Assembly (NCBI GenBank): GCA_017470095.1
Contig: JAFUFC010000077.1
Coordinates: forward strand, 1-45,015
Source: Clostridia bacterium
GTDB taxonomy: Bacteria; Bacillota; Clostridia; Christensenellales; Aristaeellaceae
DNA length: 45,015 nt
Direction: 5' to 3'
Each line of letters begins with the position of its first letter. Positions within the stretch are counted from its first letter, which is position 1. The notes beneath the pieces are model-generated. The model searched no databases, was not told the DNA's origin, and saw only the letters and a program-made list of their open reading frames with translations. Shown piece after piece: positions 2,641 through 44,408 of the stretch. Made by a program: the position numbers and the translations under genes.

Positions 2641-2698
2641 GCGGAACGGTCGTGCCGTCCGCAAGCCGCAGGGAGCGATTCGTTCCCCGCGGTTTTTT
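2641..2698 (+). terminator. Terminator region after rplA (two tandem hairpins)
   Basis: A first hairpin pairs GCGGAACGG with CCGTCCGC (2641-2662, one bulged A). A second pairs CCGCAGGGAGCG with CGTTCCCCGCGG (2666-2692) and is followed by TTTTTT (2693-2698). The second has the layout of an intrinsic terminator and ends the ribosomal protein operon. Confidence 0.85.
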
Positions 2699-2768
2699 GA
2701 GTTTTGGCAGGAATTTGGCTGTCAGGGGAAGAAAAATGATACGGAAGTGTGGTAAGGAGGAACGAAAC

Positions 2769-3701
2769 ATGAAACATGCCATGCGGATTTTGTGCGTTGC
2801 CTTGTGCCTGACGCTGCTGCCGGGATGGATCCTGCACGCCCGGGCAGATCAGCTGTACCTAATCCCAGACAGCGACACTCGACGCCTGGAGGAAGAGGAA
2901 CTGTGGAAGTGGGACCGGGAATCACTGAGTTTCATTTTCAATGAGATCTTTGCCCGCCACGGTTACGTGTTCAACGCGGGAGGGAAATATGACCTGTGGT
3001 TCCGGGCTATGCCTTGGTACACCCCCAACAGTAACCCGGATAACCAGAAATACTGTTATCCCAAAGTGAGCCAACTGGAGTGGGACAATTACCACACCAT
3101 CAAGCGGGTGGCGGCGCAAATGGACGCACTCCGGGAAAGTGCGCACACCAAGGGCCGCAAATGCTACACGCAGCTGACCCCGCCGGGGAACTGGTTCCTG
3201 TCGGGCTTTTCCTATATCAAGCTCAGGACCGACCAAAAACTGCCGGTGTACGCTGCCCCCAGTGCCTCCGCCTGGCGGGGAGCCAACGGCAAAGCCATGG
3301 TGAGCACCAATGGCGCCGTGTGGGCCGCCGGCTGGGAGAAGGGATGGCTGCTGGTGTTCTATGAAACCAATAACAATTCCATCCGCGTGGGATATGTGAA
3401 CGGGAAAAAGATCACCGGCAAGGTGCCCAATACCACTCAGCTGATGTTTGAGCGCACTGCCGTCACCGTCAGCCGGGACTGCGCCCTGACGGACGACCCG
3501 CTGATGGCCAACGTGACCATGGCTAACCTCAGGGCCGGCGCCCAGGTCACGTATCTGACCAGCATGGTGAACCAGAACGGGCAGATGTGGGATTACGTGG
3601 AAACCACCATCGGTGGGAAGACGGCCCGAGGCTTCGTTCCTCGGGATTGTCTGAATTACGTTGTAGAAGCGTTGCCGGACTATGATTACGATAACGGCTG
3701 A
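2769..3701 (+). CDS. Secreted YARHG and SH3-like domain protein
   Basis: A 310-residue exported protein. An N-terminal signal sequence (about residues 1-24: basic MKHAMR, hydrophobic core, HARA cleavage region) is followed by a YARHG-type domain (NEIFARHGYVFNAGGKYDLW, about 55-90), an extracellular module common in Firmicutes envelope proteins. Two SH3b-like segments follow: one from LPVYAAPSASAW to VGYVNGKK, the other from VTVSRDCALTDDP to GFVPRDCL. The ATG at 2769 follows AAGGAGG; in-frame starts upstream run into the rplA terminator. A cell-wall-associated role is inferred and no enzyme motif is seen. It stands alone between a terminator and the radical SAM gene. Confidence 0.8.
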   Translation: MKHAMRILCVALCLTLLPGWILHARADQLYLIPDSDTRRLEEEELWKWDRESLSFIFNEIFARHGYVFNAGGKYDLWFRAMPWYTPNSNPDNQKYCYPKVSQLEWDNYHTIKRVAAQMDALRESAHTKGRKCYTQLTPPGNWFLSGFSYIKLRTDQKLPVYAAPSASAWRGANGKAMVSTNGAVWAAGWEKGWLLVFYETNNNSIRVGYVNGKKITGKVPNTTQLMFERTAVTVSRDCALTDDPLMANVTMANLRAGAQVTYLTSMVNQNGQMWDYVETTIGGKTARGFVPRDCLNYVVEALPDYDYDNG

Positions 3702-3814
3702 AGGAAGCTTTGTCGGATGTGTGGTCAGAGCAGGGGGGAAGTATCCGCGGATGAGACAGCGGCGGCGAACAAAGCGCGCGGCTCTGCTTTTATCAAAATG
3801 GAGGTTTATCAACG

Positions 3815-4927
3815 TTGGAAACAGGCGTCAAAATGGCAGTGGATAACGTAGGAGAGTGTCGGGCAAAGCCCTATGATCTTCCCCTGGTGCTGGTGGCGGA
3901 CGTGTACGGCTGCCCCAACCGGTGCCGGCATTGCTGGCTGGGGCACATGCCCAACCGGAGGATGGAGAAAGGCATCGATGCCTGGATGGTGGATTATTTC
4001 AGGCCCCATTTCTCCAGCATCACTTATCAAAGCTGGCTGCGGGAGCCGGATTTTGGGCCCGATTACCGGGAACTGTGGGAGCGGGAAAAGCAATTGTCCG
4101 TGAATGGGAACCCCCAGCGGTTCGAGCTGGCCAGCTTCTGGCGGCTGGTGAGGGACCCAGATTACGTGCGTTTTTTAAAGGAAGTAAACGTACAAAAGGT
4201 GCAGCTGACCTTTTTTGGCCTGGAGGGCATGACCGATCGGCACGTGGGCCGGAAGGGAGCGTTCCGGGAACTGCTGCGAGCCACGGACATTTTGCTGGAA
4301 AACCAAATTGCGCCCCGGTGGCAGGCGTTTATCCATGAGGAAAACAAGGATGAAATTGTGCAGCTGCTGGCGCTGTCAAAGGAACTGCGCTTGGAGGAAA
4401 GGTGCCGGGCCTTTGGCAGTGAATTTGCGTTTTTTGTTCACGCTGGCAGCTGCGACGGGGAAAACCGGAAGCTGTACGGCGTCCGGCTAAAGAAGGAGCA
4501 CTTGCCGGAAGTGCTGCTTCCTTATTATTGGCAATGGGAGGAAACGCTGACCGAAGCGGAGTGCTGCCGCTTGCTGGCCGGGGAGGAACAGTGCGTTACC
4601 TACCATGTGGAAAAGGAAGTGGTGCTCAACATTTCCAATAACCTGGACGTGTTTTACAATTTTACCCACATGACCCCCGAATGGAAAATTGGTAATTTGA
4701 AAGACGACGCGCCTTCCGAGCTGGTGCGGCAAATCATGGAGGAAGACACGACGGCCCTGCGCCTGTCCCGGGGGATCTCCGCTGGGGAACTGGTGCAGCG
4801 ATACGGCAATCCTGCGTCTCACAAAATCTTTTTCCTGGAAGATTACAAAGGGTATCTGCTGAACCGATACCTGGAAGAAGTGGGAAAAGCGCCGGAAGGA
4901 AAGATTGCAAAAGGACAGGAAAGGTGA
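3815..4927 (+). CDS. Radical SAM domain protein of unknown function
   Basis: A 370-residue cytoplasmic protein with the radical SAM iron-sulfur motif C33-x3-C37-x2-C40 (YGCPNRCRHCW) close to the N-terminus. Such enzymes use a 4Fe-4S cluster to cleave S-adenosylmethionine and start radical chemistry. A TIM-barrel-like body follows (QLTFFGLEGMTDRHVGRKG, then FRELLRATDILLENQIAPRW). The C-terminal part has scattered cysteines but no clear SPASM or second-cluster motif, so the substrate cannot be named. The TTG at 3815 is preferred because GGAGG (3800-3804) is well spaced; an ATG at 3833 is the alternative. The stop codon lies within the aquaporin promoter. Confidence 0.82.
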   Translation: METGVKMAVDNVGECRAKPYDLPLVLVADVYGCPNRCRHCWLGHMPNRRMEKGIDAWMVDYFRPHFSSITYQSWLREPDFGPDYRELWEREKQLSVNGNPQRFELASFWRLVRDPDYVRFLKEVNVQKVQLTFFGLEGMTDRHVGRKGAFRELLRATDILLENQIAPRWQAFIHEENKDEIVQLLALSKELRLEERCRAFGSEFAFFVHAGSCDGENRKLYGVRLKKEHLPEVLLPYYWQWEETLTEAECCRLLAGEEQCVTYHVEKEVVLNISNNLDVFYNFTHMTPEWKIGNLKDDAPSELVRQIMEEDTTALRLSRGISAGELVQRYGNPASHKIFFLEDYKGYLLNRYLEEVGKAPEGKIAKGQER

Positions 4928-4933
4928 TATAAT
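4905..4933 (+). promoter_or_regulatory. Sigma-A type promoter for the aquaporin gene
   Basis: TTGCAA (4905-4910) and a perfect TATAAT (4928-4933) are separated by 17 nt. The pair overlaps the end of the radical SAM gene and lies about 50 nt upstream of the aquaporin start. The same TTGCAA-17-TATAAT arrangement occurs ahead of rpsF. Confidence 0.8.
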
Positions 4934-4981
4934 ACCAACTTACACGGCTACCTACATGCCGTGGAAAAGGAGGAAAACATG

Positions 4982-5668
4982 ATGAAAAAGTATCTGGCGG
5001 AGTGCATTGGCACCGCCACCCTGGTCATCCTGGGCTGCGGCACTGCCATGCTGGTGGGCTGCGACGCGGCGAATGGCGGCGGCTATATCCTGACGGCCCT
5101 AGCCTTCGGCCTGACCATCGTGGCCATGGCCTACTCCATTGGCAACATTTCCGGCTGCCACATTAACCCAGCGGTGTCTTTGGGTGTGCTGCTCACTGGC
5201 GGTATGAGCGCCAAGGAATTTGTGGGCTATGTGGTGTCCCAGTGCGTGGGCGCGTTGGCTGGCAGCGGCATCCTGGCGCTGATCTTTGGCCTGGGCAACG
5301 TGAAGGACATGACTGGCGGCTTTGGCGCCAACGGCCTGGCCGGCGTGAACGGCAACGCTGCCGCTGGCCTGATCGTGGAAATCGTGCTCACGTTCATCTT
5401 CGTCATGGCCATTCTGGGCGTAACCAGCAAGAAAGCCAACCACGGCTCCTTCGGCGGCCTGGTGATCGGCCTGACGCTGGTGGTGGTGCACATCCTGGGC
5501 ATTGGCCTGACTGGCACCTCCGTGAACCCCGCCCGTTCTTTTGGCCCCGCTCTGGCGGCTGCTTTCAGCGGCAACGCCGCGCCCCTGGCCGATCTGTGGG
5601 TGTTCATCGTGGGCCCCTTCATTGGCGCCGCCCTGGCTGCTTGCACCTACAAGGCACTGGAAAAATAA
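4982..5668 (+). CDS. aqpZ: AqpZ-type aquaporin
   Basis: A 228-residue six-helix membrane channel of the MIP family. Both half-helix signatures are present: HINPAVS in the first half and SVNPARS in the second. The residues expected to line the selectivity filter match the water-specific AqpZ type: Phe in LAFGLTIV, His in VVHILGIG, Thr in LTGTSVNPARS, and the Arg of NPAR. A glycerol facilitator would be expected to lack the His. The start at 4982 is spaced 8 nt from AAGGAGG; an ATG at 4979 is also possible. It has its own promoter and a strong terminator, so it is probably a single-gene unit for osmotic water flow. Confidence 0.93.
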   Translation: MKKYLAECIGTATLVILGCGTAMLVGCDAANGGGYILTALAFGLTIVAMAYSIGNISGCHINPAVSLGVLLTGGMSAKEFVGYVVSQCVGALAGSGILALIFGLGNVKDMTGGFGANGLAGVNGNAAAGLIVEIVLTFIFVMAILGVTSKKANHGSFGGLVIGLTLVVVHILGIGLTGTSVNPARSFGPALAAAFSGNAAPLADLWVFIVGPFIGAALAACTYKALEK

Positions 5669-5690
5669 GCGTTTTTCTGCCACAACTCCT

Positions 5691-5730
5691 GCAATACGTG
5701 GGACGATTTTATCCCACGTATTGCTTTTTT
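5691..5730 (+). terminator. Intrinsic terminator after aqpZ
   Basis: A perfect 13-bp stem, GCAATACGTGGGA (5691-5703) with TCCCACGTATTGC (5712-5724), 8-nt loop, followed by TTTTTT and more T-rich sequence. Confidence 0.95.
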
Positions 5731-5809
5731 GTTGTTTTTTTGATATGATAAAATTTACAGGAAGATCCTTCGGGCAACTGTGAAAATCATATTTTAGAGG
5801 AGGAGTACC

Positions 5810-8800
5810 ATGAAGAAGATTGTTGCTCTCATTCTGAGCTTCTGCTTGGTGCTGGGCTCCATGGCGATCGCTTCGGCGGACGCTGTGTTCACCCCCGGCA
5901 CCTACGAAGCTACCGCTCAGGGCTTTGGCGGCGATGTGAAGGTCACTTTGACCGTGGACGAAAACGCCATCACCGCTATTGAAATCGTGGGCGAAAACGA
6001 AACCCCAGGCCTGGGCCAGGCTGCTATGCCTGTGATGCAGGAAGCGTATGTGGGTAAGGCTGACGCTGACGACGTGGACGCTTATGCCACCGCTACCGTC
6101 ACCTCCACCGCCGTGAAGGAAGCCGTTGCCAAGGCGCTGACCGCCGCCAAGGGCGAAGCCGCCGCCGCGGACGCCGCGCTGGCCTTCACCGCCGGCACCT
6201 ACGAAGTGTCCGCCGCCGGCTACAATGGCGACAGCACCTTCGCCGTCACCTTCTCCGATTCCGCGCTGACCGGCGTCGAAGTGGTGAAATCCACTGAAAC
6301 CGCCCATGTGGGCGATATCGCTTTCGCGCCCATGATCGCCGATATGATCGAAGCCAACGGCTCCGGTGTGGACGGCGTGTCCGGCGCCACCTTCTCCTCT
6401 CGCGCCCTGCGCAACGCGGTGAACGCTGCCGCCGAGCAGGCTGCGTGCACCAACCTGGACGCTTTCAAGGCCGCTACCGTGAAGCATGAGCCCCAGGCTC
6501 CTGTGGATCTGACCTACGATATCGTTATCGTGGGTGCCGGCGGCGCCGGTCTGGCCGCGGCTGCCCAGGCTGCGCAGGACGGCTATTCGGTACTGATCCT
6601 GGAAAAGGCCGCTGAAATGGGCGGCAACACCCTGGTTGCCGGCGGCGCGTACCAGAGCGTGATGCCTTATCTGGTATGGGATAAAGAGAATCCCGATGCC
6701 ACCACCGGCATTAATCCCATCGATGGCCAGGAATACGCCAAGGTCAAGAATGACAGCGGCCGGATTGAGATCCTCAAGACGATCTTGTCCTGGTCCGAAG
6801 AAGAATTTGACGGCACGCTGGATGATGCTCACCCCTTCGTGGCCGGCGAAATTGGCCTGAACGCCGTGCGCGGTGTGCACGCCGAATACCTGCCCACCCT
6901 GCAGGCCCTGAAGGCTGAGATCAACGATTATCTGGCTTGGGCCCAGCCCCAGCTGGACAGCGGCGTGAAAGAAACCCAGCTGACCCTCTTCTCCACCAAG
7001 AACCTGCATATTTTCCAGACCTACTACGGCGGCCTGCGGCCCAGCGCTGACGGCTCCCAGTGGATCTATGGCCGGTATGAACTGGTGAGCCAGGTCATCG
7101 AAGAAGGCCAGGATATCAAGAGCTGGCTGTGTGCTCAGGGTTCCCTGTTTGATTTCGCCAACCAGAGCACGCTGATCGGCTGCCTGTGGCAGCGCGAAAA
7201 CGGCCCTCAGGGCGGCGTGGTCAACGGCGAAACCATCAAGGATACCAAGTGGGGCGCCTACTTTGCCGTGCCCTACAACACCATGATGACCGCCAATCCC
7301 GATAACAAGCTGCTGCTGCGGACCACTGCCAAAGAACTGATCACTGAGAATGGCAAAGTGGTGGGCGTGAAGGCCGAGCAGTATGACGGCACCGAAGTGA
7401 CCGCTCATGCCACCAAGGGCGTGATCCTGGCCACCGGCGGCTATGGCGCCAACATCAAGATGGTGCAGGAAAGCAATGTATACTGGAAGCCGGAATACAT
7501 CGCTGATAACATCGGTACCACCAACCGTGCTGAACTGACCGGCGACGGCATCCTGATGGCCCAGGCTGTGGGCGCCGACGTGGAAGGCATGGGCTGGACC
7601 CAGATGATGCCCCTGGGCTGGGTGGACAATGGCAATTTGTCCCGCGGCGCCGGTGAAAACGTCATCTTCGTCAACGCTGCCACCGGCAAGCGGTATGTGG
7701 ACGAATCCGCTGAACGCGACGTGCTGTCTCTGGGCGGCTTCGAAAACGGCATGAGCAAGGAACAGGCCGAAAAGATGGGCCTGAAGTACGTGCCCGGTAT
7801 CTATATTGAAATTTCCAACCCCAGCATCAAGATCAACGGCACCGAGGAAATCGAAGGCCGTCTGTACTTCCGCACCGTAGAAGAAATCGCTGAAATGATC
7901 GGCTGCGACGCCGATACCCTCCGCCAGACCATCCAGGATTATGACAATTACGTCATGGGCGTAACCACCGAAATCGACGTGCCCAAGCTGGCTACCCAGG
8001 GCACCATCGGTGATGTGGAAAAGGATGAAAATGGCAACTATAAAGTGGACACTTACCACATCGGCACGCTGCGCATGCGTCCCCAGGCTCCCTCCACCCA
8101 CCACACCATGGGCGGCGTGAAGGTGGACCTGAACCGCCATGTGCTCAACACCGAAGGCAATGTGATCCCCGGCCTGTACGCTGCGGGCGAAGTCACCGGC
8201 GGCATCCATGCCGGCAACCGTCTGGGCGGCAACGCTTTCACCGAAATCATCGTTTCCGGCCGCGTGGCTGTGAAGGCTGTCGAGACTGATAACGCCGGTG
8301 CGGAAGCGCCCGCTGTGGAAGAAGCCGCTGCCGGCTTCATCCCCGGCTCCTACGAAGAAACGGCCCAGGGCTTCGGCGGCGATGTGAAGGTTAACGTCAC
8401 GGTGGATGACAAGGCCATCACCGCCATCGAAATCGTGGGCGAAAATGAAACTCCCGGCATCGGCGCCGCTGCCATTCCTGTGCTGCAGCAAGCCTATATG
8501 GGCAAGGCTGCCGCCGAGGATGTGGACGGCGTGACGGGCGCCACCGTCACCTCCACCGCTGTGAAGGAAGCCGTTGCCAAGGCGCTGGCCGCTGCCAAGG
8601 GCGAAGCCGCTGCCGCTGACGCCGCGCTGGCCTTCACCGCCGGTACCTATGAAGTGTCCGCCGCCGGCTACAACGGCGACAGCACCTTCGCCGTCACCTT
8701 CTCCGATTCCGCGCTGACCGGCATCGAAGTGGTGAAGTCCACCGAAACTCAGTATGTGGGCGATATCGCTTTCGCGCCCATGATCGCCGATATGATCGAA

Positions 8801-10768
8801 GCCAACGGCTCCGGCGTGGACGGCGTGTCCGGCGCTACCTTCTCCGCCCGTGCCCTGCGCAGTGCGGTGAACGCCGCTGCCGAGCAGGCTAACTGCACCA
8901 ACCTGGACGCTTTCAAGGCCGCCAAGGTGGAGCATGCCGCAAAAGATCCCATCGATGTGACCTATGACGTGGTGGTCGTGGGTGCCGGCGGCGCCGGCAT
9001 CGCCGCTGCCGCGCAGGCTGCCCAGGATGGAAATACCGTGCTGGTTATTGAAAAGAATGCCGAAGTGGGCGGCAACACCCTGGTTTCCGGCGGTCAGTAC
9101 CAGAGCGTGATGCCCTACCTGGTGTGGGATCCCGCTGATCCCGACGCCACCACCGGCGTGTATCCTTTCACCGGTGAAACCTATAACAAGGTCAAGTCCG
9201 TTCCCGGCTGCATGAACGAACTGAACATGATCCTGAACTGGAGCGAAGAGCCCTTCGACGCGGACTACTACGTCGATCACGAATTCGTGGCGGGCGACGC
9301 TGCCGAACTGAGCAAGCACGGCGTGCACGCCGAATACCTGCCCACCCTGAAGGCTTTGAAGGCCGAGATCCGGGAATACTTCGTCTGGGCAGCCGGTCAG
9401 TTGGCCGCCGGCAAGAATGAAAGCCAGTTGACCCTGTTCTCCACCATCAACCTGCACATCTTCCAGACCTACTACGGCGGCCTGCGCCAGAGCGCCGATA
9501 AGACCCAGTGGATCTACGGCGATATCGATCTGGTGAAGCAGTTCATCGAAGGCGGCCAGGGCCTGAAGGAGTGGCTGGAAGCCCAGGGCTCCCTCTTCCG
9601 GGAAGACACCCAGCCCACCCTGATCGGCGCGCTGTGGTATCGTGAAAACGAATTCATCGGCTCCACCATCGACCTGGATGGCGACGGCAACAATGAAATG
9701 GGCCGCTGGGGCGCTTACTTTGCCGCTCCTATCACCACCATCCAGAACGCCAATGAAAAGAACCAGATCATGAAGCGCACCACCGCCAATTCCTTGATTG
9801 TGGAAGACGGCAAGGTGACCGGCGTGAAGGCCACCCAGTATGACGGCACGGAAGTGACCGCGCATGCTGCCAAGGGCGTCATCCTGGCCACCGGCGGTTA
9901 TGCCGCCAACATCCAGGAAGTGCTGGATTACAACGTGTACTGGTCCACCGAATACCTGTCCAACGCCACCAAGACCACCAACCGCTCCTCTCTGCAGGGC
10001 GACGGCATTAAGATGGCGGAAGAAGTGGGCGCTGCCATTACCGGTATGGGCTTCACCCAGCTGATGCCCATTTCCTGGGTGGATAACGGCAACCTGGCCT
10101 TCGGCGGCGGCAACTACGCGGCTTGGATCAACCCCATGACCGGCCATCGGTTCGTGGATGAAGGCAGCGAGCGCGACGTGCTGTCCCTGGCTGAATTCCG
10201 CAACGGCATGGAAGTGAACGGCACCAAGGGCGTGTTCCTGGAATTCTACAACGCCGAAGAACTGATCCCCGGCCCCATCCAGCTGGCGCAAGGCGACTAT
10301 GAAGGCCGCTACTATCGCCGCACCATCGATCAGCTGCCTGAATTGTTCGAGCATCTGGGCGTCACCGCTGATCCCGCCGTGGTCATCGATACGATCAAAA
10401 AGTACGATACGGCCGTCATGGGCCAGGGCGAATATCCCGATGTGGGCAAGGCCATTGCTTCCCGCTGCGTGGGCAACGTGCAGAAGGACGAAAACGGCAA
10501 CTACCTGCCCGACACCTATGATCTGGAAGGTACCCTGCTGACCATCCGCCTGATGGCTCCTTCGACCCATCACACCATGGGTGGCCTGGCGGTGGATACC
10601 GACCGTCATGTGCTGAACGCCGACGGCCAGATCATCCCCGGCCTGTATGCTGCGGGTGAAGTCACCGGCGGTATCCATGGCGGCAACCGTCTGGGCGGCA
10701 ACGCCATCGTGGAAATCTTCGTGTCCGGCCGGACCGCGGCCCAGGCTGTGCAGGCAGATAACCAGTAA
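5810..10768 (+). CDS. Secreted tandem-duplicated FMN_bind / FAD-dependent reductase (fumarate reductase flavoprotein-like)
   Basis: A 1652-residue exported flavoprotein. After a Sec signal peptide (about 1-24, no lipobox) it has two copies of the same three-domain unit: FMN_bind, FMN_bind, FAD_binding_2. The second unit is offset by 816 residues (2448 bp) in the FMN domains. FMN_bind domains carry FMN on a Thr/Ser of a D-x-x-[ST]-G-A-[ST] motif attached by ApbE. DGVSGAT at 188-194, DGVTGAT at 906-912 and DGVSGAT at 1004-1010 fit; the first domain reads DAYATAT (90-96). Both FAD units have GAGGAG (242 and 1058) and the fumarate-reductase-type residues: Arg in ERD (636, 1455), HHTMGG (764-765, 1587-1588) and GNRLGG (Arg804, Arg1627). 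It probably reduces an external organic acceptor; the substrate is unknown. Confidence 0.9.
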   Translation: MKKIVALILSFCLVLGSMAIASADAVFTPGTYEATAQGFGGDVKVTLTVDENAITAIEIVGENETPGLGQAAMPVMQEAYVGKADADDVDAYATATVTSTAVKEAVAKALTAAKGEAAAADAALAFTAGTYEVSAAGYNGDSTFAVTFSDSALTGVEVVKSTETAHVGDIAFAPMIADMIEANGSGVDGVSGATFSSRALRNAVNAAAEQAACTNLDAFKAATVKHEPQAPVDLTYDIVIVGAGGAGLAAAAQAAQDGYSVLILEKAAEMGGNTLVAGGAYQSVMPYLVWDKENPDATTGINPIDGQEYAKVKNDSGRIEILKTILSWSEEEFDGTLDDAHPFVAGEIGLNAVRGVHAEYLPTLQALKAEINDYLAWAQPQLDSGVKETQLTLFSTKNLHIFQTYYGGLRPSADGSQWIYGRYELVSQVIEEGQDIKSWLCAQGSLFDFANQSTLIGCLWQRENGPQGGVVNGETIKDTKWGAYFAVPYNTMMTANPDNKLLLRTTAKELITENGKVVGVKAEQYDGTEVTAHATKGVILATGGYGANIKMVQESNVYWKPEYIADNIGTTNRAELTGDGILMAQAVGADVEGMGWTQMMPLGWVDNGNLSRGAGENVIFVNAATGKRYVDESAERDVLSLGGFENGMSKEQAEKMGLKYVPGIYIEISNPSIKINGTEEIEGRLYFRTVEEIAEMIGCDADTLRQTIQDYDNYVMGVTTEIDVPKLATQGTIGDVEKDENGNYKVDTYHIGTLRMRPQAPSTHHTMGGVKVDLNRHVLNTEGNVIPGLYAAGEVTGGIHAGNRLGGNAFTEIIVSGRVAVKAVETDNAGAEAPAVEEAAAGFIPGSYEETAQGFGGDVKVNVTVDDKAITAIEIVGENETPGIGAAAIPVLQQAYMGKAAAEDVDGVTGATVTSTAVKEAVAKALAAAKGEAAAADAALAFTAGTYEVSAAGYNGDSTFAVTFSDSALTGIEVVKSTETQYVGDIAFAPMIADMIEANGSGVDGVSGATFSARALRSAVNAAAEQANCTNLDAFKAAKVEHAAKDPIDVTYDVVVVGAGGAGIAAAAQAAQDGNTVLVIEKNAEVGGNTLVSGGQYQSVMPYLVWDPADPDATTGVYPFTGETYNKVKSVPGCMNELNMILNWSEEPFDADYYVDHEFVAGDAAELSKHGVHAEYLPTLKALKAEIREYFVWAAGQLAAGKNESQLTLFSTINLHIFQTYYGGLRQSADKTQWIYGDIDLVKQFIEGGQGLKEWLEAQGSLFREDTQPTLIGALWYRENEFIGSTIDLDGDGNNEMGRWGAYFAAPITTIQNANEKNQIMKRTTANSLIVEDGKVTGVKATQYDGTEVTAHAAKGVILATGGYAANIQEVLDYNVYWSTEYLSNATKTTNRSSLQGDGIKMAEEVGAAITGMGFTQLMPISWVDNGNLAFGGGNYAAWINPMTGHRFVDEGSERDVLSLAEFRNGMEVNGTKGVFLEFYNAEELIPGPIQLAQGDYEGRYYRRTIDQLPELFEHLGVTADPAVVIDTIKKYDTAVMGQGEYPDVGKAIASRCVGNVQKDENGNYLPDTYDLEGTLLTIRLMAPSTHHTMGGLAVDTDRHVLNADGQIIPGLYAAGEVTGGIHGGNRLGGNAIVEIFVSGRTAAQAVQADNQ
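5888..6480 (+). repeat. Long direct repeat, copy 1 (FMN_bind pair of module A)
   Basis: This stretch encodes the two FMN-binding domains of the first module. It aligns without gaps to 8336-8928 at a constant offset of 2448 bp. Identity is above about 90% by eye in 6181-6480, clearly higher than between the two FAD domains. Confidence 0.85.
8336..8928 (+). repeat. Long direct repeat, copy 2 (FMN_bind pair of module B)
   Basis: Second copy of the FMN_bind pair. Most differences from copy 1 are silent; the main coding changes are the flavinylation motif of the first domain and a few short substitutions such as Ala-His to Gln-Tyr. Confidence 0.85.
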
Positions 10769-10789
10769 TCTTCACAGAATCAACCCTTT

Positions 10790-10820
10790 GGGGCAGGAGA
10801 ATTCCTGCCCCAATTTTATG
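10790..10820 (+). terminator. Terminator after the tandem flavoprotein
   Basis: GGGGCAGGA (10790-10798) pairs with TCCTGCCCC (10803-10811) around a GAAT loop, followed by an imperfect T-rich tail (AATTTTATGTTT). Confidence 0.75.
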
Positions 10821-20957: not shown

Positions 20958-23702
20958 ATGAAGGAAACAGGAATGCTGAACCGGTTGGTCTCTTGGATGC
21001 TGCTCGCGATCCTGGTGATGACGCTGTTTACGCCCGGATCTCTGGCGGAGGATGCGTATATCCGCACCATCGTGGACAAGGTCAACGTCCGCGAAACGGC
21101 CAGCTCCAGCGGCAAGGTGCTCAATGAAAACAACCAGATCCCGCTGGGCAGCGTGCTTCTGGTGCAGCAAACCTTCACCGATGTGAACGGCCACGAATGG
21201 GCCCTGGTCAAGTATGATACCGCCGTGGGCTACGTGGATTCCGATTGCTACGCCGCCAGCGACGAATACGGCAATCTACTGGCTGATTCGGTGGCGAACG
21301 CGGCGGTGTTTACCGTGGCCGCAGCTCCTGTCGCCAAGGCGCTGACTGCTTCGTCTGCGGCCAACACTGCTGCCGACGCCGCTACCGCCACGCCGACCCC
21401 CGCCCCCGCTTCGGCCATTTTGAAGGCTGGCGATATCGGCGAAGTGACCATCGATAACGTGTTTTTCCGCAAGACGGCCGACACTTCCGGGGATTTCTGG
21501 GATCGGCTGACCAAGGGCTTCCAGCTCAAGGTGCTGGGCACTACTGTGACCGGCAAGGGCAAGAACCAGATTCTGTGGTACAAGGTGCAGGGTGGCACCA
21601 CCAAATGGCCCGACCGCACATACACCGGCTATATCCACAGCGATTATCTGGTGGCTGCCGGCAGCGTTGCGACCGCTACGCCTACGCCCACTCCCACTCC
21701 CACGCCCACTCCTGCATCTTCTTCCGGCTCTTCTTCGGCAGCCGCCACCGGCTATGTGAAAACCACCAAAACCGGCGTCAACATCCGCAAGACCCCCGCG
21801 GGCGCCGTGCTGACCGGCAAGAACGAAGATAAGGTGCCTGTCAACACCGTGCTGGCCTACACCGAAAAAACAGGCAAGATTTCCGGCTATTACTGGGCCA
21901 AGGTGACCTATAAGGGCGTCACCGGCTATATCCGCTCCGACTGCTGGACGGAGACAGATGCCAAGGGCGCCGCGGTGGCCACCGCTGTGCCTGCCACGCC
22001 GACTCCCGCGCCCGCGTCGTCCTCCGGCGGCACGGCGACCGTGCCCAGCAACGCCTTGGGCGTGATCAGCCTGACCACCGGCGGCGTGAATTTCCGCGTG
22101 AACCCCAACGGCACTATCCTGGGCCGTTTGAATAAGAATACCAAGCTTAATTACTACGCCACCCAGACGGTAAACGGCCAGCTGTGGTACTATGTTTACT
22201 CCGCCGAAATGGGCAGCTACGGCTATGTGCTGGGCTCTCTTGCGAAGGTGGTCAGCGGCGCGACCCCGGTTCCCGTGGCCGTTGCCACGCCCGCGCCTTC
22301 TTCCGGTAGCAGCGGCACTGCCACTTCCGCCACTTCCGGCAAGCTGGTGACGATCGCCGATAAGCTGAACCTGCGCAAGACCCCCAGCCTGCAGGCCATC
22401 GTGCTCAAGCAGATTCCCAAGTCCGGCGTCAACTTTAACTTCACCGCTACTCAGACGGTGGGCGGCATTACCTGGTTTAAGGTGACCTACAGCGGGAAGA
22501 CCGGCTGGCTGCACGGCAGCTTCGTGCGGGTGCTTTCCACCAATGGTTCTTCCAGTTCTACCTCCGGTGGCAGTTCCTCCGGCGGCTCCTCTTCCGGTTC
22601 CACCGGCGCCACGACCACCGCCGTGCCTGATCCGTCTTCCTTCAGCGATGTGGCTCTGACTACGGCCCAGAAGGTGTTCATCCGCAAGGAGCCTTCCATG
22701 AGCGGAAAGCAGCTGGGCCAGGTGGCCAAGCAGGGCACCAAGCTGACCTACAACGGCAAGTACCAGACGGATACCAAATCCACCTCCGGCACCACTTACA
22801 CCTGGTATAACGTGACCTACGGCAAGATCACCGGCTGGATGCGCGGCGACTTTGTACGCATCCTGACCCAGGCGGAAAAGAAGGTTTACTCCCTGACCGG
22901 CGATGCCAATAACCCGGTGGAAGCCGAATACGAAACCCTGAAAAAGGGCAGCGAAGGCGACGCCGTGAAGGCCCTGCAGCAGAAGCTGGTGGAAAAAGGC
23001 TATTTGACCGCCTCTCAGGTGACTGGCACCTATGACACCGCCACCGAAAAGGCTGTGATCGCTTTCCAGAAAGCCAATGGCCTGACCCAGGATGGCATTG
23101 CCGGCGAAAAGACCCAGCATGCCCTGTTCAACACCGTGCCCGTGGGCACCTATGATAACAGCACTGTGAATCCCACGCTCTATCCTGTGGAAAAGGTGGA
23201 TTGGTTCACCGGTGATATCCAGACCGTGTGGCCTGTGGAAGGCACCGCCATCATCACCGATGTGTACAAGGGCATTTCCTTCCGGGCGTACCGCATTTTC
23301 GGCGGTAACCATGCCGACATCGTGCCCCTGACTGCTGCGGATACTGAAGCCTACTGCCAGATTTACGGCACCAGCAGCGCTCAGGAAATTGCCGACCGGT
23401 ATTCGGAACTGCAGGTCTGGCGCCGCCGGCCCCTGTGGGTCACCGTGGGTACCCGCACCTTCGCCGCCTCCCTGTATGGCGCGCCCCATAACTTCGATAA
23501 TTCCACGGTGAAGTATACCAACCAGACCAAATTGAAGAACAATTTCGTGGGCCAGGTTTGCGTACATTTCGTCAATTCCAAGACCCACGACAGCGCCACC
23601 AGCAAGGCTCACGTGGATTACGATACCAGCAACAACGGCAATTTCGGCCACCAGAGCGCGATCCAGTACGCGTACACCCACTCCATCAGTGGTACCAAGT
23701 AA
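20958..23702 (+). CDS. Secreted multi-SH3b, peptidoglycan-binding protein
   Basis: A cell-wall-associated protein of about 914 residues. A signal peptide (hydrophobic WMLLAILVMTLFTPGSLAE) is followed by six bacterial SH3 domains, recognisable by V-N-[VIF]-R-x-x-x-x-x-G and ending in [YW]-[VIL]-[HR]-x-D/S. They are joined by Pro/Thr/Ser/Gly linkers such as TPTPTPTPTPAS. Then comes a PG_binding_1 domain (LKKGSEGDAVKALQQKL to GIAGEKTQHALF). The last 170 residues form a conserved clostridial-type domain with ADIVPLTAADTEAY, RRRPLWV, GAPHNFDN, VCVHFVNSKTHDS and FGHQSAIQYA; its His residues suggest a metal or catalytic site, function unknown. ATG 20958 has GGGGTG at good spacing; ATG 20934 or 20973 are possible. 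Confidence 0.85.
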   Translation: MKETGMLNRLVSWMLLAILVMTLFTPGSLAEDAYIRTIVDKVNVRETASSSGKVLNENNQIPLGSVLLVQQTFTDVNGHEWALVKYDTAVGYVDSDCYAASDEYGNLLADSVANAAVFTVAAAPVAKALTASSAANTAADAATATPTPAPASAILKAGDIGEVTIDNVFFRKTADTSGDFWDRLTKGFQLKVLGTTVTGKGKNQILWYKVQGGTTKWPDRTYTGYIHSDYLVAAGSVATATPTPTPTPTPTPASSSGSSSAAATGYVKTTKTGVNIRKTPAGAVLTGKNEDKVPVNTVLAYTEKTGKISGYYWAKVTYKGVTGYIRSDCWTETDAKGAAVATAVPATPTPAPASSSGGTATVPSNALGVISLTTGGVNFRVNPNGTILGRLNKNTKLNYYATQTVNGQLWYYVYSAEMGSYGYVLGSLAKVVSGATPVPVAVATPAPSSGSSGTATSATSGKLVTIADKLNLRKTPSLQAIVLKQIPKSGVNFNFTATQTVGGITWFKVTYSGKTGWLHGSFVRVLSTNGSSSSTSGGSSSGGSSSGSTGATTTAVPDPSSFSDVALTTAQKVFIRKEPSMSGKQLGQVAKQGTKLTYNGKYQTDTKSTSGTTYTWYNVTYGKITGWMRGDFVRILTQAEKKVYSLTGDANNPVEAEYETLKKGSEGDAVKALQQKLVEKGYLTASQVTGTYDTATEKAVIAFQKANGLTQDGIAGEKTQHALFNTVPVGTYDNSTVNPTLYPVEKVDWFTGDIQTVWPVEGTAIITDVYKGISFRAYRIFGGNHADIVPLTAADTEAYCQIYGTSSAQEIADRYSELQVWRRRPLWVTVGTRTFAASLYGAPHNFDNSTVKYTNQTKLKNNFVGQVCVHFVNSKTHDSATSKAHVDYDTSNNGNFGHQSAIQYAYTHSISGTK

Positions 23703-23712
23703 TCAATCAAAC

Positions 23713-24924
23713 ATGAACAACGATGTAATGATCATCGGCGGAGGCGCAGCGGGTTTGTCCGCTGCGCTTTCCGCATCCGGGCAGGGGGCGCGTGTTACTG
23801 TGATTGAGGGCGCACCCCGGTTAGGCAGGAAAATTCTGGCCAGCGGCAATGGCCGGTGCAACCTGGCCAACGCCGGCGAACCCCGCTACTACGGGGAAGC
23901 GGCCTGGGCTTTGCAGGTGTTTTCCGCTTGCCCGGTTACCCAGGTGCTCGCCTTTTTTGAAGAGCTGGGGCTGGTAGCCGTGGAGGAAGCAGGGGGCAGA
24001 ATATACCCCGGCTGCGGCCAGGCGGCGGCTGTGCTGGATGTGCTTCGGGCCGAAATTGAGCGGCGGCACATTCCCGTGATCTGCGAAGCGCCTGTGGCCA
24101 AGCTATGCCAAACGTCCTCGGGCTTTCGAGCGGATACGCCGAAGGGAAGCTTTGCGGCTTCCCGGACAATTGTGGCCTGCGGAGGCATGGCCGGGGGCAA
24201 ATTGGGGCACGATGGAAAGGCCTACCAATTGCTGACCGGCTTGGGCCATACGCTGATTTTCCCCCGTCCGGCCCTGACCCAGATTGAGGCAGAAAAGCGG
24301 GCGGTGAAGGGCCTGTCCGGCCTGCGTCTGCCCGCCCGGCTGACCCTGTGCGAGGGCAAGCGCCCGGTCTCTGCCGCCCAGGGGGAAGTGCTGTTCACCG
24401 ATTACGGGGTTAGCGGCGTATGCGCCATGCAGCTGTCTCGGGACGCGGAAGAAATGCTGGCCAAGGGAAAGCAGCCCACGCTGTATATCGATTTTTCGCC
24501 CATGCTGGGGATCATTCCAAGGGTGTACGACCGGGTGCCTGCCCAGGATCCGGAGAAAAACCTGCCTGCCGTGCGGGCATGCATCGAAAAGCGGCGGCAT
24601 ATCTTGCCACCGGAGGGAATTTTGACCGGCCTGGCTCCCCGACTGCTCAGTGAGAAGCTGAGAGGCCTGACGGCGGAGCAAACGGCCCGGGCCCTTGCGG
24701 CGTATCCTGTGCCAATCACCGGGGTGCGGGGCTTTGAACATGCTCAGGTCACCAGCGGTGGTATCGCCTGCCGGGAATTTTCTCCGGCCACCCTGGAATC
24801 CAGTTTGTGCCCCGGGCTGTACTGCGCCGGGGAAATGCTGAACGTGGATGGGGACTGCGGCGGCTTCAACCTGCAATTTGCCTTTGCTACCGGCATTCTG
24901 GCCGGGAAACACGCGGCTGAATAA
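23713..24924 (+). CDS. HI0933/YhiN-family FAD-dependent oxidoreductase
   Basis: A 403-residue cytoplasmic flavoprotein. The N-terminal FAD dinucleotide site is VMIIGGGAAGLSAALSASG, followed by the family hallmark LGRKILASGNGRCNLAN. Near the C-terminus are FEHAQVTSGGIACREFSP and GLYCAGEMLNVDGDCGGFNLQ, the second half of the FAD-binding region. This is the HI0933/YhiN family (annotated as aminoacetone oxidase-like or BaiN-like); the true substrate is usually unknown. There is no clear ribosome site before ATG 23713, 10 nt after the SH3 gene, so translation may be coupled. The next gene is a flavin reductase, suggesting a shared redox function. Confidence 0.88.
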   Translation: MNNDVMIIGGGAAGLSAALSASGQGARVTVIEGAPRLGRKILASGNGRCNLANAGEPRYYGEAAWALQVFSACPVTQVLAFFEELGLVAVEEAGGRIYPGCGQAAAVLDVLRAEIERRHIPVICEAPVAKLCQTSSGFRADTPKGSFAASRTIVACGGMAGGKLGHDGKAYQLLTGLGHTLIFPRPALTQIEAEKRAVKGLSGLRLPARLTLCEGKRPVSAAQGEVLFTDYGVSGVCAMQLSRDAEEMLAKGKQPTLYIDFSPMLGIIPRVYDRVPAQDPEKNLPAVRACIEKRRHILPPEGILTGLAPRLLSEKLRGLTAEQTARALAAYPVPITGVRGFEHAQVTSGGIACREFSPATLESSLCPGLYCAGEMLNVDGDCGGFNLQFAFATGILAGKHAAE

Positions 24925-24937
24925 GGAGGATCGAACC

Positions 24938-25540
24938 ATGAAAAATCAATTTGTGTCCCTGAAGCCCGGCGCCTTGCTGGCCCCTGTGCCGGCGGTGATG
25001 GTGTCCTGCGCTCTGCCGGGAGAAAAGCCCAATATCGTCACCGTTGCCTGGACCGGCACAGTGAACTCCGACCCGCCCATGTGCTCCGTTTCCCTGCGCA
25101 CATCCCGGTATTCCCACGATATCATCCGGGATTCGGGGGAATTCATTATCAATTTGTGCGGTGAGGAGAACCTGCGCGCCACGGATTTTTGCGGCGTGAA
25201 ATCGGGCCGGGAAATCGATAAATTCGCCGCATGTCAATTGACGGCTGTGCCTGTGGAGGGCTTTGCCGCCCCGGCCATTGGGGAATGTCCCCTGTATTTG
25301 GCCTGCAAGGTCACATCCGTGCAGGAATTGGGCAGCCATAACCTGTTTCTGGGGGAAATCAAGCAGGTGGGCGTCAGCAAAGCGTTGATCGGCGAAGACG
25401 GCGGCATCGACTTTGGCAAGGCCAAGCTGGTGGCCTACAATCACGGTGTATACTATCAATTGGGAAAGGCCCTGGGGTTCTTCGGCTATTCCGTCGCCGC
25501 GCCGGATGTGCTGGAGCGGCGGATGGCAAAGCTGAAATAA
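24938..25540 (+). CDS. Flavin reductase-like domain protein
   Basis: A 200-residue protein of the flavin reductase (FMN-binding split barrel) family. Motifs include ALLAPVPAVMVSCAL, NIVTVAWTGTVNSDPPMCSVSLR, RYSHDIIRDSGEFIINLC and the NLFLGEIKQVGV strand. Family members bind FMN and reduce flavin or other small substrates with NAD(P)H. The ATG at 24938 follows AAGGAGG, which overlaps the stop of the preceding FAD gene; in-frame starts upstream lie inside that gene. It was probably co-transcribed with 23713-24924. Confidence 0.9.
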   Translation: MKNQFVSLKPGALLAPVPAVMVSCALPGEKPNIVTVAWTGTVNSDPPMCSVSLRTSRYSHDIIRDSGEFIINLCGEENLRATDFCGVKSGREIDKFAACQLTAVPVEGFAAPAIGECPLYLACKVTSVQELGSHNLFLGEIKQVGVSKALIGEDGGIDFGKAKLVAYNHGVYYQLGKALGFFGYSVAAPDVLERRMAKLK

Positions 25541-42908: not shown

Positions 42909-44408
42909 TCAGGCGAGTGCAGAATCATCCTCATTTAGCCTGATATGAAGCATCATTCGGAGTCGACTGAAAAAAGAGCGCAAAAGAAGCCGAAGCCTCT
43001 TCCGCAGGTTCATGTAGATCACAATGGAATGGATCATCACCTCGCTGGTTTCCTTTAGCTTGGTTACGATACAATCCAGTGAGTAGCGGCGTTTTCCAAC
43101 GCCAAAGTTCCGTTCGATTTCACCACGATCTCCTGATTCCAGCCATTCCAGTTTCTTGTGCCTTTTTGCTTCTGCTGGATCTGCAAAGGGTTTTCCAAGT
43201 TTTGGACCGTTCAGATGAATGCCGCGTTCCTTGCAATACTTCAGATTCTCTCTGGTGCGGAAGATCGTATCTGCAAGAACCCTGGCGGGATAGTACCCAT
43301 AAGCTTTCCTGTAGGCTTCTACCGATTGCTGGAGCGTAGTGCTTTCATTGAAAGCATCCCATCGCAGATCCTCGATCCGGAGGAAACCGTCGACCACACT
43401 CATTTCCACTTTGGCACCGAATTCAACGTCCGCTGTTTGCTTTCCCCGAACAATCGGTCTCACCCAGCTTTGGGAAAGACTGACGATTCGGTCAGGCACC
43501 TTGTGGGTTCCGGTTCGGTACATATACTCCTGCTGGGAATACAGTGTCCGAATCACCTGCAGCATCGTCTGCTTTCTGGTAGAAAGCTTTTGCAAGCAAC
43601 CAGGATGCCGTCGCTCATAGGCATCGATGAATCCCAGATCCCGGCTCAGATATCCCAGCTGCTGGCGGATGGTCGTCCGAATCATCTTTACGGTCTTTTT
43701 TCGGGTTTTGGAGAAACTGTTGTATTTCCGGCGGGCTTTCTCACGGTAAGTTCTTGGCTTCTTTCCTTCCGAGAGTCCCATTTCATGGAGGTCATCTATG
43801 ATTTCTTCCGCTTTTTCCCGGGCTTCATTCAGTAGAGAGGCATCCGTAGGGAACCGGATATTCTGCGGCGCGCAGGTAGCATCCAGAATCATGGTTCCTT
43901 CATTCTTTTCCTCTTCGTTTTTACTGCCCTGGCATTCGTCTGCCTGACCGCCATCCGTATGGCTGTCATCATTGTCGCTGCTGTCATCGTTCCTGTCTTG
44001 CTCTGACTTCCGACCATCGATCTGGTCATTCACCCAGGCGAGCATTTCAGGCGTGATCCGCTGACGGAATCTCGTCATCATACTGGGATCAAAGGGACAT
44101 TCGTACCGGTATTCATGCAGTCCGAGAAAGTATTGCAGATACGGGTTCATGGCAATCTCTTTGGTGATATCCTCATCAGATAGGGCTTTGTAGGCCGGTT
44201 TGATCAGGAGCGCACCCAGCGCCATTCTGGAATCAATCGCCCTCTGGCCTTTCTTGCTTCTGAAGTTATCGGCATACTTCAGATCGAACTCCCGCCAGGG
44301 AACCAGCTTGCTCAGCTTGATCTAGTCATTATCCGGGTCTAGCGGCAACGAGCCGAACATTTCGGGTGATTCCAGCATGAAAACCTGTCCTGTATGCCGT
44401 TTGTACAT
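42909..44408 (-). pseudogene. IS1182-like transposase with a premature amber codon
   Basis: Read from ATG 44408 the frame has 499 residues and one stop: TAG at 44322-44324 (codon 29), in the stretch PLDPDND-stop-IKLSKLVPW where transposases of this group usually have Trp. The rest is intact (438 residues from an ATG at 44225): NDQIDGRK spacer, the catalytic DDE-type start ILDATCAPQNIRFPTDASLL, VDGFLRIEDLRWDAFNEST, and the end GERNFGVGKRRYSLDCI-like block. CAGGAGGG precedes ATG 44408. Expression from the internal start would lose the N-terminal helix domain. Likely inactive. Confidence 0.82.

Follow-up and report, generated by a model that had tools for sequence, protein, structure and literature searches.

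We identified a gene in the 45,015-nt window (the whole stretch of DNA analysed) that encodes two different FAD-dependent reductase modules, A and B, in a single open frame. We think it fairly likely that its product is a secreted respiratory reductase whose single chain unites two distinct terminal enzymes, that A was inserted into B, and that an RNF complex feeds electrons to the reduction of two substrates. The computed results comprise the domain architecture, a syntenic single-module gene, the non-monophyly of fused modules, purifying selection, the catalytic residues and the presence of ApbE and RNF genes. The arrangement probably allows one electron supply to drive two different breathing-like reactions, the enzymes for which are separate in related bacteria.

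A predicted secreted chain with two reductase modules

An earlier note on this DNA had described an exported 1652-residue chain with four FMN_bind domains and two FAD domains, and the reading frame and Pfam matches bear out its length and domains. Pfam places four FMN_bind stretches in the protein and FAD_binding_2 in both halves (6518-8233 and 8966-10705), giving the order FMN-FMN-FAD(A)-FMN-FMN-FAD(B). The domain borders in Table 1 were drawn with models built from the 1652-aa protein itself. FMN_bind and FAD_binding_2 thus occur in one chain, a combination expected of flavinylated extracytosolic fumarate reductase-like enzymes, and the whole protein scores 410.6 bits against TIGR01813 (NCBIfam flavocytochrome c; curated cut-off 285.45). 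The [S/T]GA[S/T] flavinylation motif is found in three of the four FMN domains (aa 191, 909 and 1007) and is missing from D1. Therefore, the four FMN_bind domains probably amount to three covalent FMN, and not all of the FMN domains would act as a relay.

Table 1. Positions of the reductase gene, its domains and its flanking features in the window

Feature	Position	Strand	Details
Terminator-like hairpin, upstream	5691..5724	+	13 pairs, T-rich tail; between the aquaporin (MIP) and reductase genes
Whole reductase chain A-B	5810..10768	+	1652 aa, ~175 kDa pre-export; uninterrupted open frame, 1652 codons translated, no internal stop
Predicted signal peptide, Sec type	5810..5878	+	Cut after ASA, by inspection; orthologues start alike
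FMN_bind D1	5882..6151	+	aa 25-114; degenerate flavinylation motif DAYATAT, aa 90-96
Near-identical FMN stretch, first copy	6091..6390	+	300 bp, D1 end and most of D2; 94% DNA identity to 8539-8838
FMN_bind D2	6182..6451	+	aa 125-214; motif DGVSGAT
FAD reductase module A	6500..8293	+	aa 231-828; R636, H764, R804; Ala280 at the UrdA Glu177 site
FMN_bind D3	8333..8599	+	aa 842-930; motif DGVTGAT
Near-identical FMN stretch, second copy	8539..8838	+	D3/D4; 94% identical to 6091-6390
FMN_bind D4	8630..8899	+	aa 941-1030; motif DGVSGAT
FAD reductase module B	8948..10765	+	aa 1047-1652; R1455, H1587, R1627; Gln1096 at the UrdA Glu177 site
Terminator-like hairpin, downstream	10788..10813	+	11 pairs

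The N-terminus, MKKIVALILSFCLVLGSMAIASA, reads by inspection as a Sec-type export signal; it has no lipobox, on which ground a lipoprotein anchor was ruled out, also by inspection. The ATG is preceded by AGGAGGAG, a strong ribosome-binding sequence. With this and the terminator-like hairpins that flank it (the scan gave 9 sites vs 4.7 in shuffles, so that some sites are due to chance), the reductase gene is an apparent single-gene unit. Opposite the gene, the minus strand is open over 1859 aa (5099-10678); this frame was set aside as a probable by-product of the GC-rich coding sequence and its codons. Elsewhere, the window carries an IS-type transposase gene (42909-44225, minus strand; DDE_Tnp_1_2 and DUF772) and, at 23689-25540, a gene for an HI0933-like flavoprotein followed by a flavin reductase-like gene. 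The nearest named relatives of the uncultured source bacterium are rumen and gut Clostridia/Christensenellaceae.

A and B are paralogues rather than copies

The two halves had previously been taken for two full tandem copies, a description that does not hold. The FAD modules A and B are only 59% identical and formed two separate clades in a maximum-likelihood tree of 32 modules (support 100/100), and the 94% identity is confined to the 300-bp FMN stretch. These stretches are likely a joint of recombination or homogenisation. A recent internal duplication of one gene was ruled out by this split into clades and by the stand-alone A genes of other genomes.

In a sample of 300 family genomes, with no more than four candidates scored in each, A-type genes (at least 72% identical to window A) are present in 12 that lie outside the genus. 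We examined 11 of the 12, all but the fragment in G275. Eight are uncut FMN-FMN-FAD genes with frames of 837-884 aa, and the other three are cut by contig ends. Four of the 12 genomes (G050, G052, G266 and G294) also have a B-type gene, located on another contig. In the tree, the sister of window A is the lone A module of G050 (86% identity; support 100/99); with the A modules in chains of its own genus, window A shares 74-77% identity. Similarly, the single-module B of record L057, the closest B to that of the window (94% identity), is its sister (support 100/99). By coordinates, L057 is the same record as G042 and L064 as G020; L043 is G018, and the G007 chain is L053:6920-12611.

A simple counting method gave dN/dS values of 0.10-0.31 across the eight orthologous pairs tried; modules A and B are under purifying selection. 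For the window paralogue pair A/B, dN/dS was 0.50, which fits divergence between the two without proving that they have different substrates.

Origin of the fusion

A single-module B gene adjoins rplA in L057, G018 and G013. The window reductase is also near rplA, from which it is separated by three genes (YARHG, radical SAM and aquaporin; window 2652-5668), and its downstream neighbour is common to the window, L057 and G018. The YARHG, radical SAM and aquaporin genes had no match in the stretches of L057, G018 and G013 compared (E 1e-15). Because relatives have a single B beside rplA, where the window has the fused gene, A appears to have been inserted into B. The locus is thus a clean before/after pair, with relatives holding the single-module gene at the same rplA-adjacent place. 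In G005 and G044, an aquaporin gene adjoins the reductase.

The degenerate motif of D1 recurs at the corresponding domain in G018 (L043; DVYASAT) and L057 (DVYATAT). Together with the rplA synteny, this suggests that the signal and D1 are B-derived and that A sits between D1 and D4. D2 is closer to the A donor (88.1 vs 86.2%) and D4 to the B donor (88.1 vs 85.6%); by these small identity margins, D2 may have arrived with A and D4 may belong to B. In this view, a single-module B gene would have received, in frame, the FAD module of its paralogue A along with FMN-domain sequence, probably by recombination via the near-identical FMN-binding repeats. Across three related species the same FMN domain (D1) lacks the flavinylation motif and the domain is still retained.

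Placing all fused A modules in one clade was rejected (p-AU 3.45e-6), as was placing all fused B modules in one clade (p-AU 3.9e-4), in tests for which the groups were set by architecture but which were run after tree inspection. As the fused A modules are not monophyletic, A probably entered chains at least twice. The trees are also compatible with a single fusion after which A was replaced in one lineage, and this may have occurred instead.

Multi-module chains in related genomes

Chains with more than one reductase module were found in six of the 29 genus genomes, the window included, as A-B, X-B or X-A-B, where X is a further module type; three of them are cut or frame-broken. Both G014 and G020 have X-A-B in complete open frames (2344 and 2296 aa, respectively). 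G007 and G043 have X-B and no A; the G043 chain is cut, and another contig of that genome holds a B piece. In G004, A is followed by FMN-FMN and then cut by a contig end, and B pieces lie at another contig end. Near the C-terminus, the G007 chain has a small repeat and loses its frame, through either genuine mutation or misassembly. B without another module was present in 13 of the 29 genomes (two of these, G011 and G016, were seen only in cut pieces), and ten genomes had neither module at threshold. Lone B in 13 genomes and neither module in ten imply that the fusion is dispensable for function.

Outside the phylum, a contig end in the Synergistota record L085 cuts into a chain in which the last part of a further FAD module leads in frame into FMN-FMN-B. 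This partial module is 53% identical to X over 108 residues, and the accompanying B groups with Synergistota B modules. Among the best 80 of 284 confirmed loci in a genome scan, seven of which have frames cut by a contig end, only L064 (G020) and L085 were multi-module. We also used a junction probe spanning the end of A through D4, which more distant multi-reductase chains would escape. Against 308 family genomes, junction-spanning frames longer than one module occurred, among the matches listed, only in the genus (G000, G020, G007, G004 and G043), and in G014 two parts of the probe matched separately. Against 398 phylum genomes, no frame among those listed exceeded 884 aa except that of the window. 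The FAD-then-FMN order was seen in G328, G404 and G669, but in single-reductase frames of ~600 aa, and two further matches (G709 and G669) cross stop codons.

These distributions bear on whether the joining matters. In a neutral in-frame fusion, the enzymes would work as they do when apart, possibly on two substrates, with no functional benefit from being joined. This would agree with the similarity of the FMN domains, which favours recombination, and with the minority status of chains in the genus. We nevertheless regard it as unlikely, given what are probably at least two entries of A, the additional X-B, X-A-B and partial Synergistota chains, and the purifying selection on the modules. The favoured reading, two different enzymes joined for a shared electron supply, accords with the classic view that fusion of enzymes that are single elsewhere hints at joint action, and on that view the pairing of A and B (and X) narrows the substrate search.

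Two arrangements beside single-module B genes were also seen. At L131:3457-6534, a 1026-aa frame with the order FMN-FMN-FMN-FAD-FMN-FMN adjoins such a gene; its FAD module has the residues QLHPT and TESVRGNG, which we take to be fumarate-type. At L078:7481-8131, a C-terminal X-type remnant lies directly upstream of single-module B and is unfused, with a stop and an intergenic stretch between the two.

Active sites of A and B

The best solved relative is the urocanate reductase UrdA of Shewanella oneidensis (PDB 6t85; E 3.5e-46 for A). As described for UrdA, Arg411 is catalytic, His520 and Arg560 are carboxylate ligands, and Glu177 and Asp388 contact the imidazole (PMC10882135); our numbering uses a 128-residue offset between the chain and the paper, by our own reckoning. 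According to the same description, full-length UrdA also has an FMN domain. Relative to UrdA, the first FAD motif is separated from the remainder of the module by ~120 additional residues.

Arg411, His520 and Arg560 of UrdA are kept in A and B, and the earlier claim that the catalytic Arg/His/Arg residues are intact in both modules was correct (Table 1). We extended this to an alignment of 15 A, 97 B and four X rows, in which some genomes contribute twice to B (84 distinct B at <99% identity). The Arg411 site is Arg in every row (15/15 A, 97/97 B and 4/4 X), and the His520 and Arg560 sites are kept in every A, B and X row that is not cut there. Other residues stand at the imidazole contacts Glu177 and Asp388 (Ala280/Gly615 in A, Gln1096/Gly1434 in B), which ruled out a plain urocanate reductase. 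Glu377/378 of fumarate reductase, on the proton path and replaced by Ala387 in UrdA according to PMC10882135, is not kept either (Ala614 in A and Gly1433 in B). A plain fumarate reductase was ruled out on this basis, and fumarate itself is not an expected substrate. Flavocytochrome c3 (Fcc3) and FMN-type FrdA share the FAD_binding_2 family and the catalytic Arg with this chain, which differs from them at that Glu site and in having no CxxCH heme motif.

The modules also differ consistently from one another. A comparison of the A and B rows identified 44 columns that are conserved at ≥90% within A and within B and differ in state: 37 residue differences and seven one-sided gaps. The 37 include the substrate-tail site, Glu177 of UrdA, which is Ala (14/15) or Ser (1/15) in A, Gln in B (97/97) and Gly in X (4/4). 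Judged by these positions, the two modules would act on different unsaturated carboxylates, neither of them fumarate or urocanate. Of the three options raised in the earlier note (paired reductions, two substrates or an intramolecular dimer), two substrates is the best supported, since A and B are old paralogues, are single elsewhere and differ at pocket positions.

If both modules instead acted on the same substrate, the fusion would only add active sites per exported chain or form an intramolecular pseudo-dimer. The identical catalytic triad and domain family and the near-identical FMN stretch are what would be expected; 59% identity between the modules and 37 fixed differences, one at the substrate-tail position, are not, nor are the single A and B genes of other genomes or the X-A-B and X-B chains. 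We consider this reading improbable, and the dimer in particular finds no support in the A and B relatives examined, most of which are single-module, or in chains with three modules. An assembly chimera that joined A and B genes of different genomes is very improbable and was rejected: the draft is unfinished (183 contigs) and the best A match comes from another genus, but the halves share no exact repeat longer than 61 bp, the A-to-D3 linker is in frame without a stop, GC3 is 0.72-0.82 within the gene vs 0.68-0.81 in five other window genes, and five other genus genomes have multi-module chains, two of them (G014 and G020) complete in one frame.

Predicted electron supply

The earlier note had advised looking for apbE and an electron-supplying membrane complex, and the genome has both: its one ApbE match (G000:C110:9030-9881) lies beside an RNF operon. 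The ApbE gene precedes genes for a NusG_II protein, a protein in the RnfG position, RnfC, RnfD, two Rnf-Nqr membrane subunits and an RnfB-like iron-sulfur protein (ApbE/RNF locus G000:C110:8682-18029, L138). The RnfG-like protein (1018 aa) has six FMN_bind stretches and no CxxCH heme motif; multi-flavinylated RnfG proteins have been reported (PMC8238504). This RNF complex, with its multi-FMN_bind subunit, is likely the electron source for the reductase chain.

Electrons from ferredoxin or NADH would enter the RNF complex and pass to the multi-flavin RnfG-like subunit, then to the ApbE-attached FMN of D2, D3 and D4 and on to the FAD in either module. A different alpha,beta-unsaturated carboxylate would be reduced at each FAD, which gives the hydride, with a proton from arginine. 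Flavinylation, the electron path and the substrate class are all predicted here from sequence. More tentatively, the FMN repeats may be both relay and recombination joint, and gut anaerobes may plug A, B and X into an RNF-fed secreted flavin wire. It is possible that this constitutes a modular 'poly-reductase' that uses two or three acceptors at once and was assembled repeatedly, perhaps in two phyla.

Relation to known flavoproteins

Multi-reductase flavoproteins, in which several FMN-binding domains are combined with two or more fumarate reductase-like domains, were described in 2021 (PMC8238504), and by that description this kind of protein is already known. With its four FMN-binding and two fumarate reductase-like (Fr-like) domains, the present chain belongs to the multi-flavinylated class defined there, for which a role as a multi-functional reductase platform was proposed. 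As far as its treatment of these proteins goes, PMC8238504 gives them one sentence and a figure and presents gene clusters, whereas this gene looks like a single-gene unit; its examples may include this family. In the literature searched for multi-reductase flavin chains, the phrase 'multiple fumarate reductase-like domains' appeared in PMC8238504 only. To what is known, our analysis adds three types of module, an insertion followed at a syntenic locus, signs of more than one entry and a pocket difference that is fixed between A and B.

CbFMN4 and SaFMN3 are strings of covalent-FMN domains (PMC10339131) and in this respect resemble the FMN domains of our chain, in which covalent attachment is predicted. 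Domain 1 of CbFMN4 (PDB 8p2b) matches D3 (E 5.2e-12). Unlike this chain, CbFMN4 and SaFMN3 are presented in the abstract of PMC10339131 with no reductase domain named. Such multi-flavin proteins have been likened to beads on a string (PMC11334425). The architecture had initially been judged unusual; as a class it was already in print (PMC8238504). Within this genome, 14 chains combine FMN_bind and FAD_binding_2, and only this one has two reductase modules.
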